Shown here piece after piece: positions 57,784 through 64,000 of a DNA stretch of 64,000 nt. The notes under the pieces are model-generated. The model saw only the letters and a list, made by a program, of their open reading frames with translations. It was not told where the DNA came from and searched no databases. The stretch spans positions 2,108,001 through 2,172,000 of the forward strand of contig NZ_CP063849.1 of NCBI RefSeq assembly GCF_015277775.1, given 5' to 3'. Each line of letters opens with the position of its first letter. Within the stretch, counting starts at the first letter, position 1. The DNA is from Paludibaculum fermentans (GTDB taxonomy: Bacteria > Acidobacteriota > Terriglobia > Bryobacterales > Bryobacteraceae). The position numbers were made by a program, and so were the translations under genes.

Positions 57784-58944
57784 TCAGCGCATCTTCGTGG
57801 TGACGATGGGAGCCAGCGGCCACTCGTCCATGGTGATACGGCCGTCGTGGTTCCTGTCGAGTTTTCGCAGGACGGCGGGCGCATTGCGCATCTCGTCTGA
57901 GGAGATTTCGCCGTCGTGATTGGTGTCCAGGGCCTGGAGCAGCGGGTGCAGGCGGACCAGCGCTGCTTCAGAATCCGACGCTTCCGCACTTTGCACGATA
58001 TCCAGCGTGTAGGAGCCCTCGCCGCGTTGCCGGAGAATGCCGTATTCGGCTGCGGTACGCGTGGGGTAGAGGGAGCGCTCGGCGCGGGTCTGCGAAGCTG
58101 GAGCCCCAGGACTGGCCGGTGCCAGGGCCGCTTGCTCGCCTGCGGGCGGCGGAGCTGTGGAAGCGCGAACCGGCGCGAAATAGTCGTCCGCGGTCAGGCG
58201 GCCATCGCCGTTGCGATCCATGGCGTGCAGCGCGGCTCCGGCGTCCGCGATCTCCTCGGCTGAGACGACCCCGTCGTGATTGGTGTCAAAGGTCCGTGGG
58301 GACAGCGCCAGATACACGATGGAGCCTCCTGTCCGGGCCGCGGCCTGGGCCGGTGGCGGAGCGGGGGTCCAGGTCGCCGCAGTGGCTTCGCGCGGAGCCG
58401 GTGGGCGCGGCTTGGAGAACGCGTTCTCATAGAAACGCAGGATGCGTACCCAGACGGAGTCGGTCCCCACGTCGCTATGGTTCGAGGAGCGGCCGCCGCT
58501 GGCGCCGCCCCCAAACGCGATGGCCGATTGGCCGCCTTCCACACCAAAACCGGCGGAGCCCGCCACGGCGCGATTCGAGCCGGAGAATGTGGTATTCCAA
58601 GGTCGGCGGCCCTGCCCGTGCCCTAACGCGAAGCCCACCAGCGCAAACGCGGCCAGAGCCACGAGTCCGCCATTGAACAACGCGCTCTTGGGTGGCATCG
58701 ACTGATCGGCGCAGTAGAAGACCGGCACTCCGTCGCTGGAGGCCAGCGGCGCGGACTGCGGCTCGGGTTCGTTCTCGCGCAGCAGCCACTGGCGGCCGAG
58801 CGAGACGCAGGCGTCGCTGAAGAGCGGCCAAGGCCGGCCGGAGCGGGCCGTTTCGTCGTAGATCGAGAGCATCTCATCGCCATAGCGCGTGCGGAACGTG
58901 CCGGGATGGAGACGCAGTATTTGAACATAGAGAGACCGCAGCAT
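57784..58944 (-). CDS. EF-hand membrane protein with permease-prefix-like N-terminus
   Basis: About 386 residues. The first 60 residues (YVQILRLHPGTFRTRYGDEMLS) resemble the prefix domain of acidobacterial MacB-type permeases; then a TM helix (about 88-105) and a long low-complexity linker. Four EF-hand loops follow in two pairs: DTNHDGVVSAEE, DRNGDGRLTADD, DTNHDGEISSDE and DRNHDGRITMDE. The ATG at 58944 overlaps the stop of the PadR gene (GTGATG; the GTG at 58947 would also work), so translation is coupled. It may be a calcium-responsive membrane protein under PadR control. Confidence 0.8.
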   Translation of the reverse strand: MLRSLYVQILRLHPGTFRTRYGDEMLSIYDETARSGRPWPLFSDACVSLGRQWLLRENEPEPQSAPLASSDGVPVFYCADQSMPPKSALFNGGLVALAAFALVGFALGHGQGRRPWNTTFSGSNRAVAGSAGFGVEGGQSAIAFGGGASGGRSSNHSDVGTDSVWVRILRFYENAFSKPRPPAPREATAATWTPAPPPAQAAARTGGSIVYLALSPRTFDTNHDGVVSAEEIADAGAALHAMDRNGDGRLTADDYFAPVRASTAPPPAGEQAALAPASPGAPASQTRAERSLYPTRTAAEYGILRQRGEGSYTLDIVQSAEASDSEAALVRLHPLLQALDTNHDGEISSDEMRNAPAVLRKLDRNHDGRITMDEWPLAPIVTTKMR

Positions 58945-59297
58945 CACGCCCTCCCGAATTTCGTGCGCGCCAGGCGGAGCTTGGCCGCGTGCACGATCGC
59001 TTCCATCCGTTCCACCTCGGCGCTGAGCACTCCGCGGCCCAGCGAGCCCAGACGATAGTACCGGCGGCGCGGGTCGTCGTCGCCTTCGCGGGCTCCGGCC
59101 TCTTCGACGAGACCCTGCGTGGTGAGCCGCTGGAGATTGTCGTAGAGCGTACCGGGGCCAAGCTTGTACTGGCCATTCGACTGCCGCGCCACCTCCTGCA
59201 TGATGGCGTATCCGTGCAGTTCGCCCGCGCTCAGCGCAAGCAGGATGTGCAGCGACGCCGGAAGCAGCGGCAGGAACTTCGTGGGATCCGGTTTCAT
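58944..59297 (-). CDS. PadR family transcriptional regulator
   Basis: 117 residues: a winged-helix DNA-binding domain (LPASLHILLALSAGELHGYAIMQEV, then LGPGTLYDNLQRLTTQGLVEEAGA and RRRYYRLGSLG) plus a C-terminal helix for dimerisation (LSAEVERMEAIVHAAKLRLART). The recognition-helix motif GPGTLYxxLxRL is the PadR hallmark. In acidobacteria PadR genes commonly precede large MacB-type permeases; here the following gene instead encodes an EF-hand membrane protein with a permease-like prefix. The stop codon overlaps that gene, so the two are coupled. Confidence 0.92.
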   Translation of the reverse strand: MKPDPTKFLPLLPASLHILLALSAGELHGYAIMQEVARQSNGQYKLGPGTLYDNLQRLTTQGLVEEAGAREGDDDPRRRYYRLGSLGRGVLSAEVERMEAIVHAAKLRLARTKFGRA

Positions 59298-59384
59298 GGC
59301 TCGGCTTCCGTTATATCGGAATCCGAGTGAGATGACAAGCAGTTTAATGCGGAAGCTGGAAAGAATGCGTTATACTGGCATTTC

Positions 59385-59456
59385 ATGCAGTCAGCTCGGA
59401 ACATCGCCCGGCATCATCACCATCATCATGGGGTGGGCGGGCGTTCTTTGTCCTGA
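59385..59456 (+). CDS. hisL: his operon leader peptide
   Basis: A 23-residue open frame, ATG at 59385 and TGA at 59454, containing six consecutive histidine codons (59412-59429), CAT CAT CAC CAT CAT CAT. Leader peptides of this type report the supply of charged tRNA-His: when it is scarce the ribosome stalls at the His codons. It precedes hisI by 85 bases and its own transcription terminator by 26 bases. A TATACT at 59371-59376 could be the -10 element, in which case transcription would start almost at the ATG and translation would be nearly leaderless; no good Shine-Dalgarno sequence is present. Confidence 0.8.
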   Translation: MQSARNIARHHHHHHGVGGRSLS

Positions 59457-59520
59457 GCGAGGCAGCGCAGGAAAAGATTCAGAGCCCGCCCGGTCCGGCC
59501 AGGACCAGGCGGGCTTTTCG
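59403..59520 (+). promoter_or_regulatory. his attenuator with alternative pairings
   Basis: Four segments allow exclusive pairings. 1 (59405-59410, CGCCCG) can pair with 2 (59438-59443, CGGGCG), enclosing the His codons. 2 (59435-59442, GGGCGGGC) is also a perfect 8-base complement of 3 (59484-59491, GCCCGCCC). 3 is the 5' arm of the terminator with 4 (59502-59515). A ribosome stalled at the His codons would mask segment 1 and favour 2:3, preventing the terminator; one that reaches the stop codon would mask 2 and allow 3:4. This is the standard his attenuation logic, though GC-rich DNA makes chance pairing easier. Confidence 0.7.
59483..59518 (+). terminator. his attenuator terminator
   Basis: AGCCCGCC pairs with GGCGGGCT and GGTCC with GGACC around a 5-base loop and one C/A mismatch, followed by TTTT. 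It lies 24 bases before the hisI start codon, inside the leader of the operon. Confidence 0.85.
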
Positions 59521-59541
59521 TTTGCTGGAGTAATCGACACT

Positions 59542-59910
59542 ATGGATCTCGACTTCAATAAGACCGGCGGCATGATTCCCGCCGTTGTCCAGGATGTGAC
59601 CACGGGCCGTGTACTCATGGTCGGTTTCATGAACGAGGAAGCGTTTCAGAAGACCGTGGCCACGGGGCTGACGACCTTCTATAGCCGCAGCCGCAACAAG
59701 CTCTGGACCAAGGGCGAATCGTCGGGCCACACGCTGGTGGTGAAGTCGATCCAGACCGATTGCGACAAGGATTGCGTGCTGGTGCAGGTGGAGGCGCAGG
59801 GACCGGGCGTCTGTCACGAAGGCTACCAGTCGTGCTTCTTCCGGACCCTGGAAGAGGGCGAGTGGAAGATCACCGAAGCACAGACCTACGATCCGAAAGC
59901 CGTTTATTAA
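59542..59910 (+). CDS. hisI: Phosphoribosyl-AMP cyclohydrolase
   Basis: 122 residues, the length of a stand-alone HisI without the HisE domain. It opens the ring of phosphoribosyl-AMP in histidine synthesis. The metal-binding pattern is intact: the DCDKDC motif (first Asp and Cys) and the later Cys in [10 protein letters not shown], plus the [12 protein letters not shown] substrate block. The start is the ATG at 59542, with GGAG eleven bases upstream; the frame is open further upstream through the leader region, but that reading cuts through the leader peptide and terminator and is not real coding. First structural gene of the his operon. Confidence 0.95.
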
Positions 59911-59932: not shown

Positions 59933-60802
59933 ATGAAACTCAAACTCGGCATCCCCAAGGGCTCACTGGAACAGGCCACCGTGGATCTGTTCCGCCGCGC
60001 CGGATTCAATATCACCACCTCGTCCCGCTCCTACTTCCCGTCGATCGACGATCCGGAAGTGGAGTGCATGTTGATCCGCGCGCAGGAGATGGCCCGCTAC
60101 GTCGAAGACGGCGTGCTGGACGCCGGCCTCACCGGACGCGACTGGGTGATTGAGAACGACTCGGAAGTGGAAACCGTAGCCGACCTCATCTACGCCAAGC
60201 AGAGCTTTGGCAAGGTGCGCTGGGTGCTGGCCGTGCCGGAAGCCTCTCCGGTGAAGACCGTGAAGGACCTGGAAGGCAAGATCATCGCGACCGAACTGGT
60301 GGGCGCGACGAAGCGTTACCTGGCCGCCAACGGCGTGACCGCCAAGGTGGAGTTCAGCTGGGGCGCGACCGAAGTAAAGCCTCCGGAACTGGCCGACGCC
60401 ATCGTGGAAGTGACCGAGACCGGCAGTTCGCTGCGCGCGAACAAGCTGCGCATCGTCGAGACGGTGATGGAATCGAACACCCAGTTGGTCGCCAACAAGT
60501 CAGCGTGGGCGGATGCCTGGAAGCGGCAGAAGCTGGAAGACATGCGGATGCTGCTGCAGGGCGCCATCAACGCGCTGGGCAAAGTGGGGCTGATGCTGAA
60601 CGTCAATAAGGAGAATCTGGAGGCGGTGCTGGGTGTGCTGCCGGCCCTGAAGAATCCGACGATCAGCCCGTTGAGTGACGGCCAGTGGTTTGCCGTGAAC
60701 ACGATTCTCGATGAGTCGACCGTGCGCACCATCATCCCGCGGCTCAAGCAGGCGGGCGCGGAAGGCATCGTCGAGTATCCGTTGAACAAGATCATTCTGT
60801 AG
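59933..60802 (+). CDS. hisG: ATP phosphoribosyltransferase (long form)
   Basis: 289 residues. HisG catalyses the first step, joining ATP and PRPP. The N-terminal substrate domain ([50 protein letters not shown]) is followed by a C-terminal ACT-like regulatory domain (about 215-289, [24 protein letters not shown]), which makes it the long, self-sufficient form not needing HisZ and subject to feedback by histidine. AGGAAAG lies about 16 bases before the ATG. Gap to hisI 22 bases. Confidence 0.95.
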
Positions 60803-60811
60803 GAGCCGCGC

Positions 60812-62053
60812 ATGCTACGAATCGTCGAATCCAGGCAGGCCGGGCGGTTGCTGAAGCGGCGCGCGGCGCGGATGACGGAGGCGGAAGAGGCCGTACGGCC
60901 GATTCTGGACGCAGTAAGAACTCGCGGCGATGCCGCGCTGCTGGAGTACGCGCAGAAGTTCGACAAGCTGACCCGCAAGAGCGTAGCGGTGCCGGGCGCG
61001 GAACTGCAGGCAGCGGCGTCCCGCCTGTCGCCCGCGTTTCGCAAAGCGGTCACGACCAGCGCGAAGAACGTCAAAGCCTACGCCAAGCTGCAACTGCCGC
61101 AGGTGAAGAAGACCCAGCCGTCGCCGGGGTTGAAGCTGAGCCAGATTGTGCGGCCGCTGGATTCGGTGGCCGCCTACATTCCGGCGGGCCGCTATCCCCT
61201 GCCCTCCACGGTGATCATGACCGTGGTGCCCGCGCTGGTGGCGGGCGTCGAGAACATCATGGTCTGCTCGCCGCGGCCGGTGGACGAGATCTTCGGTACC
61301 GCCTCGATCCTGGGCGCGACACGGGTCTTCGAGATGGGCGGAGCGCACGCCATTGCGGCCTTTGCCTACGGCACGAAGACCGTGCCACGCGCGGACCGCA
61401 TCGTGGGTCCGGGCAACATCTATGTGGCCGCGGCCAAGAAGCTGCTGGCCGGCGAGGTGGGCATCGACTTCGTTGCGGGCCCGACGGAGATCCTGATCAT
61501 CGCCGAAGAGGCAAACCCCGCGTGGCTGGCGGCCGACATGCTGGCGCAGGCGGAGCACGATACCGACGCATCGGCGATCCTGCTGACGACTTCGCGTTCG
61601 CTGGCCGAAGCCGTGGTGGCCGAAGTCGAGAAACAGCTCCAGACACTGCCGACCGCCGCCACCGCGCGGGTCGCGATCGATAAGAACTCGGCCGTGATCC
61701 TGGTGGCCGATTCGGCCGAGGCGGTGGAACTGTCGAACCGGTTTGCGCCGGAGCATCTGTCGATCCACGACGCGAAGCTGCTGCCGGGCATCCGGCATGC
61801 CGGCAGTGTGTTTGTCGGTGCGACGAGCCCGGAAGCCGCGGGCGACTACGCGTCGGGTCCGAACCATGTCCTGCCGACCTCCGGCGCGGCCCGGCTGCGC
61901 GGCGGGTTGAGCGCGGCCGACTATGTGAAGGTGATCTCCGTGCAGGAACTGTCCGGCAAAGCCCTGCGGGCGCTGACTCCGGCCATCACAACGCTGGCAA
62001 GGGCCGAGGGTTTGGAAGCGCACGCGCGGTCAGTGGAGGTGCGCAATGCCTAA
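60812..62053 (+). CDS. hisD: Histidinol dehydrogenase
   Basis: 413 residues. HisD catalyses the last two oxidations, histidinol to histidine, with Zn and NAD. Conserved blocks: AYIPAGRYPLPST, GATRVFEMGGAHAIAAFAYGT, GPGNIYVAAAKKLL, GPTEILIIAEEANP and NRFAPEHLSIHD, the last holding the catalytic Glu-His. AGGAG six bases before ATG marks the start. Slightly shorter than the usual 430 residues at the N-terminus, but all motifs are present. It overlaps hisC by 8 bases. Confidence 0.95.
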   Translation: MLRIVESRQAGRLLKRRAARMTEAEEAVRPILDAVRTRGDAALLEYAQKFDKLTRKSVAVPGAELQAAASRLSPAFRKAVTTSAKNVKAYAKLQLPQVKKTQPSPGLKLSQIVRPLDSVAAYIPAGRYPLPSTVIMTVVPALVAGVENIMVCSPRPVDEIFGTASILGATRVFEMGGAHAIAAFAYGTKTVPRADRIVGPGNIYVAAAKKLLAGEVGIDFVAGPTEILIIAEEANPAWLAADMLAQAEHDTDASAILLTTSRSLAEAVVAEVEKQLQTLPTAATARVAIDKNSAVILVADSAEAVELSNRFAPEHLSIHDAKLLPGIRHAGSVFVGATSPEAAGDYASGPNHVLPTSGAARLRGGLSAADYVKVISVQELSGKALRALTPAITTLARAEGLEAHARSVEVRNA

Positions 62054-63095
62054 GCCGAGACCGGCCGTGGTGGAGATGGCTCCGTATTCGCCGCCGGCGT
62101 CGGGCCGCGACGGCAAGCTGCGCCTGGACTTCAACGAGAACACCGTCGGGTGTTCGCCGAAGGTGCTGGAACTGCTGCGCGCGAAGCTGAGCGAAGAACA
62201 GTTGACGGTCTATCCGGAATATGAGGCGGCTCGGCTCGCCCTATCGGATTACTTCCAGGTGCCGCAGTCGGAGTTCCTGATCACCAACGGCACCGACGAA
62301 GCGATTCAGGTGTTGATCAATACGTATGTCGATAACGACGACGACGTGATCGTGCTGCACCCGTCTTATGCGATGTACCGCTTCTATGCCGAAGTGGCGG
62401 GCGCGAAGGTGCGCGACATCCCTTATCGCGCCGGTGATCTGACGTTCCCCATCGATGAACTGATCGCGGCGATCCGGCCGGATACGAAGGCGATTCTGGT
62501 CTCGAATCCCAACAACCCGACGGGGACGGCGATCGGGATCGGCGACATCGTCCGGATCCTGGCTGCCGCGCCCAATGCGGCAGTGCTGATCGACGAAGCC
62601 TACTACGAGTTCTACGGCGTGACGGCGCTACGGATGACAGACCAGTATCCGAATCTGTTCGTGAGCCGCACGTTCTCCAAGGCCTTCGGCATGGCAGCGC
62701 TGCGCGTGGGCTGCCTGTTCTCCCAGAAAGAGAACGTACAGTACATGCACAAAGCGCAATCGCCTTACAGCGTAAACCTGCTGGCGGCGATTGCGGTGCG
62801 CGCGGCGGTGGAAGATCGGACCTACGTCTCGAACTACGCCGCACAGGCCGTGGAGGCACGCGAAGCGCTCTATCGCGGCTTCGAGAAACGCGGCATCGCC
62901 TACTATCCCAGCCAGGCGAACTTCGTGCTGTTCCAGGCCGGCGCGCAAGCAGTCCCGGTGCGTGACGCACTCAGGGCGCGCGGCATTCTGGTGCGCGACC
63001 GCAGCTACGAACTGGCAGGCACGGTGCGCGTGACCGCCGGTACCACCGCCCAGGTGGCGCGGTTCTTCCAGGCACTGGACGAGGTGTGGAAGTGA
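62046..63095 (+). CDS. hisC: Histidinol-phosphate aminotransferase
   Basis: 349 residues, a class-II-type PLP aminotransferase of the HisC branch. RLDFNENTVGCSPKVLE near the start, VSNPNNPTGTAI in the middle, DEAYYEFYG and SRTFSKAFGMAALRVGCLF, the latter holding the PLP lysine, followed by VRVTAGT near the end, are typical. It converts imidazole-acetol phosphate to histidinol phosphate. GGAGGTGCGCA is directly before the ATG, inside the end of hisD. It overlaps the next gene by four bases. Confidence 0.95.
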   Translation: MPKPRPAVVEMAPYSPPASGRDGKLRLDFNENTVGCSPKVLELLRAKLSEEQLTVYPEYEAARLALSDYFQVPQSEFLITNGTDEAIQVLINTYVDNDDDVIVLHPSYAMYRFYAEVAGAKVRDIPYRAGDLTFPIDELIAAIRPDTKAILVSNPNNPTGTAIGIGDIVRILAAAPNAAVLIDEAYYEFYGVTALRMTDQYPNLFVSRTFSKAFGMAALRVGCLFSQKENVQYMHKAQSPYSVNLLAAIAVRAAVEDRTYVSNYAAQAVEAREALYRGFEKRGIAYYPSQANFVLFQAGAQAVPVRDALRARGILVRDRSYELAGTVRVTAGTTAQVARFFQALDEVWK

Positions 63096-63769
63096 AGGAC
63101 TCGCTACTCGTCTTCGACATGGACGGAGTGCTGGCCGAGGTCGGCGATTCGTACCGCGAGACGATCGTACAGACCGTTGCCCACTTCACCGGCCAGCAGG
63201 TGGCGCGCGAACGAATCCAGGACTACAAGAATCAGGGCGGCTGGAACAACGACTGGGCGCTCTCCCAGCGACTCTGCCAGGACCTCGGAGTCGACGTCCC
63301 CTACGAGGAGGTGATCGAACGCTTCAACCTCATCTTCCTGGGCGACGACTTCAACGGACTGATCCTGAAAGAACAGTGGGTGCCGCGCAACGGCCTGCTG
63401 GAGCGGTTGAGCGAGCGCTACGACCTCTCCATCTTCACCGGCCGTCCCTTGAAAGATGCCGCGCACACGCTGCGGCGCTTCGCCTCCGGCATCGTGTTCT
63501 CGCCGATGATTACGATGGAGAGCGTGACGGAGCACAAGCCCGCGCCGCAGGGGCTGCACCTGATCCGGGCGGAACGTCCCGATGCGAAAATGTTCTATGT
63601 GGGCGATACGGTGGACGACGCCCGCAGCGCGCGTGCCGCCGGAGTCCCGTTCATCGGCATCGCCGCGCCGGCCAATCCCCGGCATGCGGAACTGGTGGAC
63701 GTACTGAAATCAGAGGCCGCCATCGCCGTGCTGGATGACATCAATCAGTTGGAAGGAGTTCTGCCATGA
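63092..63769 (+). CDS. HAD-superfamily phosphatase in the his operon, candidate histidinol-phosphatase
   Basis: 225 residues of the HAD subfamily I. Motif I is DMDGVLAE (nucleophile Asp9 and acid Asp11), motif II is FTGRP, motif III Lys is in HKPAPQGL and motif IV is GDTVDDA. The gene starts with a GTG overlapping the hisC stop (GTGA), seven bases after GAGG, and ends overlapping the hisB start (ATGA). Placed between hisC and hisB, it is a strong candidate for the histidinol-phosphate phosphatase step, which has no other candidate here. The assignment is positional, not from a family-specific motif. Confidence 0.85.
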
Positions 63770-64000
63770 AGCGCACAGCCGTCATTGAACGCATTACGAA
63801 AGAGACGCAGATTCGCGCCAGCCTCACCATCGAGGGCAAGGGCCGCTACGAGATCTCCACCGGAGTGCGCTTTCTCGACCACATGCTGGAGCTCTTCTCC
63901 AAGCACGGCGGCTTCGACATGTCGCTGATCGCGCGCGGCGACCTCGACGTCGACCAGCACCACACGGTGGAAGATGCCGGCATCGTGCTGGGGCAGCTTT
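63766..64000 (+). CDS. hisB: Imidazoleglycerol-phosphate dehydratase, 3'-truncated by the window edge
   Basis: First 78 codons only. The family motif [19 protein letters not shown] and the metal-binding [12 protein letters not shown] are present; the enzyme dehydrates imidazoleglycerol phosphate. AAGGAG eight bases before the ATG gives a strong start, which overlaps the phosphatase stop. This stretch has no N-terminal phosphatase domain, unlike bifunctional HisB of enterobacteria, consistent with a separate phosphatase gene upstream. The rest lies past the window end. Confidence 0.95.

Follow-up and report, generated by a model that had tools for sequence, protein, structure and literature searches.

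According to passages of PMC9413887, the gammaproteobacterial his attenuator (RF00514) combines a run of His codons in a short open reading frame (ORF), competing RNA pairings and a terminator before the operon, and the element upstream of the histidine operon of Paludibaculum fermentans analysed here is built in the same way. The same passages report new his attenuator candidates in Firmicutes, in the Bacillus cereus group, Peptostreptococcaceae and Lutispora, and Erysipelotrichales, which share with our element the consecutive His codons (three to five there) and the terminator and antiterminator hairpins, and in which the RF00514 model likewise finds nothing. These systems belong to another phylum and to few lineages; the passages do not mention a leaderless start, and the main text of PMC9413887 nowhere uses the word Acidobacteria. 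Leader peptides that are leaderless, stand before an amino acid gene and are linked to attenuation appear in two further reports, as leuL, trpL and ilvL of Streptomyces lividans (PMC8079986) and as trpL of Sinorhizobium meliloti (PMC7298713). They resemble our element in this respect, but serve other amino acids in other phyla, and their starts come from RNA data, whereas ours is derived from the sequence alone. A run of the sensed codon also marks the mycobacterial polycysteine leaderless short ORFs (Canestrari et al. 2020), which differ in sensing cysteine and, as excerpted from the review PMC9031893, in regulating translation of downstream genes. In three Acidobacteria genomes, leaderless genes were put at 9.7–19.4%, with an estimate of 13.3%, in the relevant part of PMC3160421. 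An earlier note on this DNA had remarked that no well-studied acidobacterial example was known, and the literature searched, in which we found no acidobacterial his leader, agrees; Lopatovskaya et al. 2010, outside that search, may contain one.

We read the P. fermentans element as a ribosome-mediated transcription attenuator of the his operon with a leaderless leader, and assign this reading a probability of roughly 0.83. It draws on how the element is built and conserved, on its potential for pairing and on the spacing of its promoter box. In enterobacteria, hisG comes first in the his operon and translation of the his leader starts from a Shine–Dalgarno (SD) sequence. Our element departs from the RF00514 systems on both counts, with hisI as the first gene and a probable leaderless start.

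The his leader of Paludibaculum fermentans

The window, that is, the whole 64,000-nt stretch of P. fermentans DNA analysed, closes with a histidine operon on the forward strand. Its first gene, hisI (59542–59910), encodes phosphoribosyl-AMP cyclohydrolase (NCBIfam NF000768) and is followed by hisG (59933–60802; TIGR00070), hisD (60812–62053; TIGR00069) and hisC (62046–63095; TIGR01141), all four above the family cut-offs. Between hisC and hisB lies a gene for a HAD-type hydrolase (63086–63769; TIGR01548, below cut-off), a candidate histidinol-phosphatase that is suspected from its operon position. The start of hisB (63766–64000) reaches the end of the window, and hisH, hisF and hisA lie beyond it (own-genome locus L091), completing the operon as hisI, hisG, hisD, hisC, the HAD hydrolase gene, hisB, hisH, hisF and hisA; HisA scores below the cut-off of its best NCBIfam family. 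The operon downstream of the leader thus encodes the matching pathway, histidine synthesis. HisI of the window is identical to HisI of a MAG labelled Acidobacteria bacterium. A divergent gene on the reverse strand (58944–59297), with a below-cut-off match to an acidobacterial PadR regulator family, adjoins the his leader.

The leader ORF (59385–59456, forward strand, ATG to TGA) encodes 23 residues, MQSARNIARHHHHHHGVGGRSLS, with six consecutive His control codons at 59412–59429. A −10 promoter box, TATACT (59371–59376), stands 8 nt 5′ of the ATG and places the predicted transcription start at about 59383–59385. Four segments follow on the same strand: segment 1, CGCCCG (59405–59410), whose partner is segment 2; segment 2, GGGGTGGGCGGGCG (59430–59443), which can pair with segment 1 or, as antiterminator, with segment 3; segment 3 (59482–59496), the 5′ arm of the terminator; and segment 4 (59502–59518), its 3′ arm, including TTTT at 59515–59518. 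This intrinsic terminator stands between the leader ORF and hisI, and its hairpin was refined to 59482–59516 (−29.3 kcal/mol). The ORF of 23 codons, its six His codons in a row and the terminator before hisI had been described in the earlier note and are confirmed here, as are the four segments it named, which read CGCCCG at 59405–59410, GGGCGGGCG at 59435–59443, GCCCGCCC at 59484–59491 and GGACCAGGCGGGCT at 59502–59515. The fold of 59376–59525 (150 nt) is more stable than those of 200/200 dinucleotide shuffles (z −4.33).

General scans passed over the element. Promoter search with 9 of 12 matches required returned no promoter, and a terminator search for an unbroken stem with a loop of 3–8 returned two terminator-like sites, on the reverse strand only; such rules probably overlook the interrupted his hairpin and the weak −35 region. 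The RF00514 His_leader model reached 24.1 bits in the window against a gathering score of 49 (E 0.053; 301 bases), and at E≤1 it had no match in 20 loci totalling 42,836 bases (those of 19 of the 88 leaders described below, and L244), a larger search in which E-values are stricter.

In an energy model of the window RNA, the terminator forms when a ribosome is placed at the stop codon or at the sixth His codon, and the antiterminator is the best fold with a ribosome at the second. With a ribosome at the first or third His codon, the 2:3 and 3:4 pairings are equally stable in the full RNA, and the nascent RNA favours the antiterminator. The predicted folds for all these positions agree with a classical switch; it is by this energy model that antiterminator and terminator exclude each other according to the position of the ribosome. 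With sufficient charged His-tRNA, the ribosome would reach the stop codon and cover segment 2, allowing the 3:4 terminator to form and the RNA to end near 59518. With scarce His-tRNA, it would stall on the early His codons and cover segment 1, so that segments 2 and 3 pair, the terminator is blocked and RNA polymerase enters hisIGDC-HAD-BHFA. Without translation, 1:2 and 3:4 should form and keep the operon off. This is the weakest step: the full RNA without a ribosome folds in this way in the model, whereas the nascent RNA to 59501 prefers 2:3. Of the exclusive 1:2, 2:3 and 3:4 pairings proposed by the earlier note, all can form, with two qualifications from the model: the equal stability of 2:3 and 3:4 at the first and third His codons, and the preference of the ribosome-free nascent RNA for 2:3.

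Occurrence and pairing potential across Acidobacteriota

The comparison drew 150 hisI loci from the 194 genomes of the phylum with a match, comprising 61 places in 60 relatives, 29 further best phylum matches and 60 loci picked to cover families before their sequence was seen; overall, the set is a non-random sample. Two duplicates (L119 and L064), a contig end (L017) and a second HisI-like copy (L061) were removed before counting, leaving 146; one retained locus, L063, may be foreign, its genome having 8% contamination. A short ORF with at least three His in eight codons was present in 88 of the 146 upstream regions (60.3%), compared with 3.4% of 730 dinucleotide shuffles, and one with at least four in 84/146, compared with 7/1460; among the tests of whether the element exceeds chance, this comparison is the strongest. 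For each of the other 19 amino acids, the same test on these regions stayed within 11 percentage points of the shuffle level, with the largest departures for Val (19.2% observed versus 8.8%), Arg (56.8% versus 67.1%), Leu (19.9% versus 27.5%) and Thr (20.5% versus 13.6%).

A his leader preceded hisI in 16 of the 41 families examined, including three in which every region carried it (f8, 18/18; f29, 9/9; f50, 5/5). Comparison with relatives, which the earlier note had called for, found the His-rich ORF kept in 34/36 regions of the P. fermentans family (f1). One of the two exceptions, L044, keeps the TATACT box and the terminator; the other, L022, has neither a His-rich ORF nor a called terminator. 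Genus g31 of family f3 had the leader before hisI in 0/11 regions (for example, L029, L031 and L045), and in three genomes of this genus that were checked hisD lies 3′ of hisI and hisG elsewhere. In a collection of named genomes, which partly overlaps the set of 146 and was kept separate from its counts, 37 of the best 80 HisI loci had the leader. Granulicella sp. S156 is one of these 37, which also include MAGs of Bryobacteraceae, Bryobacterales and Acidobacteriaceae; two carry the labels Armatimonadetes and Acidimicrobium, and none is labelled as a Bacteroidetes group. Some Acidobacteria-labelled loci among the best 80 (for example, L248, L254 and L296) have no leader.

Thirty of the 58 genomes that lack a leader before hisI were also searched at hisG and hisD, up to 1.5 kb upstream and with weaker ORFs not counted. 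In three of them, from three further families, a leader precedes another first his gene: hisG in G095 (f26; L181 about 1363), with a T run after the leader; a gene that is hisZ-like from its translation in G088 (f30; L190 about 414), with TTGACA, a terminator and, 10 nt ahead of the ATG, TAGACT; and hisD in G062 (f10; L224), with an SD-like stretch and a box that stands about 21–23 nt upstream of the ATG.

An intrinsic terminator follows the leader in 86 of the 88 hisI regions; the script had called 87, of which L087 was rejected by eye, and L066 has none. Both exceptions, from family f20, combine a His-rich leader with a GC hairpin that has no clear T run, and there the hairpin may control translation instead of termination. 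The leaders have a median length of 23 codons, with 17–56 nt (median 27) from stop codon to hairpin. Their His codons are CAT (292) and CAC (256), and the frequent use of both indicates that codon meaning is kept rather than a DNA repeat. Codon differences between leaders of the P. fermentans genus, counted pairwise, are not mainly synonymous (42 synonymous and 70 nonsynonymous), which counts against the attenuator reading, as does the excess of Val over its shuffle level.

The potential for the antiterminator exceeds the shuffle mean in most leaders, though individual cases are often weak. In P. fermentans, the 2:3 duplex reaches −26.6 kcal/mol compared with a shuffled mean of −19.4; across the 86 leaders with a terminator, the mean is −16.4 kcal/mol compared with −12.6 when segment 2 is shuffled. 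The duplex was stronger than its own shuffle mean in 71/86 and no better in 15/86, and z fell below −1.64 in only 41/86. The claim of covariation comes from a test in which segments 2 and 3 were re-paired among species: own partners (−16.43 kcal/mol) beat all 2000 permutations (best −15.64), with relatedness and G+C only partly corrected for, and the own pairing beat both other-family means in only 47/86. Both sides of the duplex have changed in L071, L089 and L058: their segment 3 contains CCCGCTGA instead of the GCCCGCCC of the window, and close to the leader end they carry GTCAGCGG or GTCAGTGGG instead of GGGCGGGC. The 1:2 pairing averaged −18.8 versus −15.4 for shuffles, was better in 68/86 and had z below −1.64 in 29/86. 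In alignment A2, there is little variation in the core arms among members of the P. fermentans family; between families, spacing differs. Together, the His ORF, the terminator and the pairing comparisons support the classical ribosome-mediated attenuation suggested by the earlier note, as far as sequence allows.

Other amino-acid leaders were also looked for. A candidate second leader lies about 238 bases before an ilvB match in the P. fermentans genome (L343; G000:C1:1707054), as an ORF of 35–37 codons with an Ile/Val-rich stretch (VVVGIIQIGVTV in this genome), a GC-rich hairpin and a T run. It recurs in 9/9 genomes of the genus, where TANNNT lies 7–11 nt ahead of the ATG, and in one f2 genome, L348, which lacks this box; in total, it is present at 10/14 ilvB-type loci. 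Before trpE (14 loci in 13 genomes, 3/13 of which passed the family cut-off), there were a few Trp-containing ORFs and no convincing leader; before leuA (14 loci in 13 genomes, 1/13 passing), there was no Leu leader. Given how few genomes passed the cut-offs, this is a weak test.

Promoter box at the leader start

A transcription start downstream of 59456 would, according to the earlier note, speak against the attenuator, but no −10-like box lies there: the TATACT box next to the leader is the sole TANNNT within 59298–59541. This arrangement recurs among the relatives. Among the 83 leaders that begin with ATG and have sufficient sequence in front of it, 78 have a TANNNT 6–11 nt before the ATG (500 shuffles: mean 6.6, maximum 13), with a peak at 8 nt (33 leaders), 9 nt (29) and 10 nt (12), and an SD-like motif precedes only 4 of the 83. 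Taken together, these two counts suggest that the leader mRNA is probably leaderless. The leader set also stands apart from the genes of its own genome, since at crude gene starts in 444 kb of P. fermentans DNA the box occurs 7–10 nt before the first ATG in 17/207, as a weak peak, and an SD-like motif in 81/207. If the −10 box stands as far from the transcription start as is usual, RNA polymerase would begin exactly at the leader ATG or at most about 3 nt from it, and the peptide would be translated from a leaderless mRNA. A TTGACA at 16–19 nt is perfect in 24 of the 78 boxed leaders and matches at five of six letters in 7 more.

The same attenuator could instead be transcribed from farther upstream and loaded by ribosomes in the absence of an SD sequence, a variant that we consider unlikely. 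It would accommodate the poor −35 region of P. fermentans, which contains no TTGACA, as well as the five of 83 leaders that have no box at 6–11 nt (in L011, L021 and L150 it stands at 16–18 nt) and the f10 hisD leader with its distant box and SD-like stretch. It sits poorly with a box held at 6–11 nt in nearly all leaders and concentrated at 8–10 nt far beyond the shuffles, with the lack of any other TANNNT around the P. fermentans leader, and with the divergent gene, which leaves 87 nt upstream of the leader ORF.

Other readings and biological meaning

A constitutive terminator behind a His-rich ORF that makes a small functional peptide, such as a metal binder, would involve no attenuation at all; we regard this as very improbable. 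His-rich peptides can bind metals, which lends the idea some appeal. A leader peptide of S. meliloti acts in trans, according to part of PMC7298713, although a peptide that acts in trans is compatible with attenuation. In the his leaders, by contrast, peptide length, stop position and hairpin spacing are kept in concert, although outside the His run the sequence varies widely, and essential synthesis genes would hardly be expected behind a permanent terminator. Moreover, a search of the 9.53-Mb P. fermentans genome for six successive CAY codons gave four matches, two of them overlapping, and hence three places; the two other than the leader lie inside long open frames, which look non-genic, and not in short ORFs. 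As the compared regions were chosen upstream of his genes, the absence of such leaders elsewhere cannot be shown from them. Control by another regulator, either a T-box for histidine or a repressor of the HisR kind, that would use the hairpin only as its expression platform has a very small chance of being correct: both control his genes in other phyla, according to passages of PMC9413887, but in the window neither the T-box nor any other Rfam family scores at its gathering threshold, and the run of His codons would be left unexplained.

With ribosome-mediated attenuation as the preferred reading, the his genes of P. fermentans and of many relatives in its phylum would most likely be switched on only under histidine shortage. 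The mechanism itself is textbook, and each ingredient of the element is known elsewhere; what is new is its spread in Acidobacteriota and the apparent start with no leading RNA. The leaderless start and the occurrence in 16/41 families are also the points that go beyond the earlier note. If only ribosomes starting at a bare 5′ AUG can load the leader, the switch would read the capacity for leaderless initiation together with charged His-tRNA. That a leaderless his attenuator sensing both is an old, shared form of histidine control in much of Acidobacteriota is a tentative proposal, and a rather doubtful one. Overall, these findings add a large and poorly studied phylum to those with leader-peptide attenuation of his genes. 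They also provide naturally occurring leaders that retain attenuation hairpins alongside a leaderless-type start, making the coupling of leaderless initiation with transcription testable.
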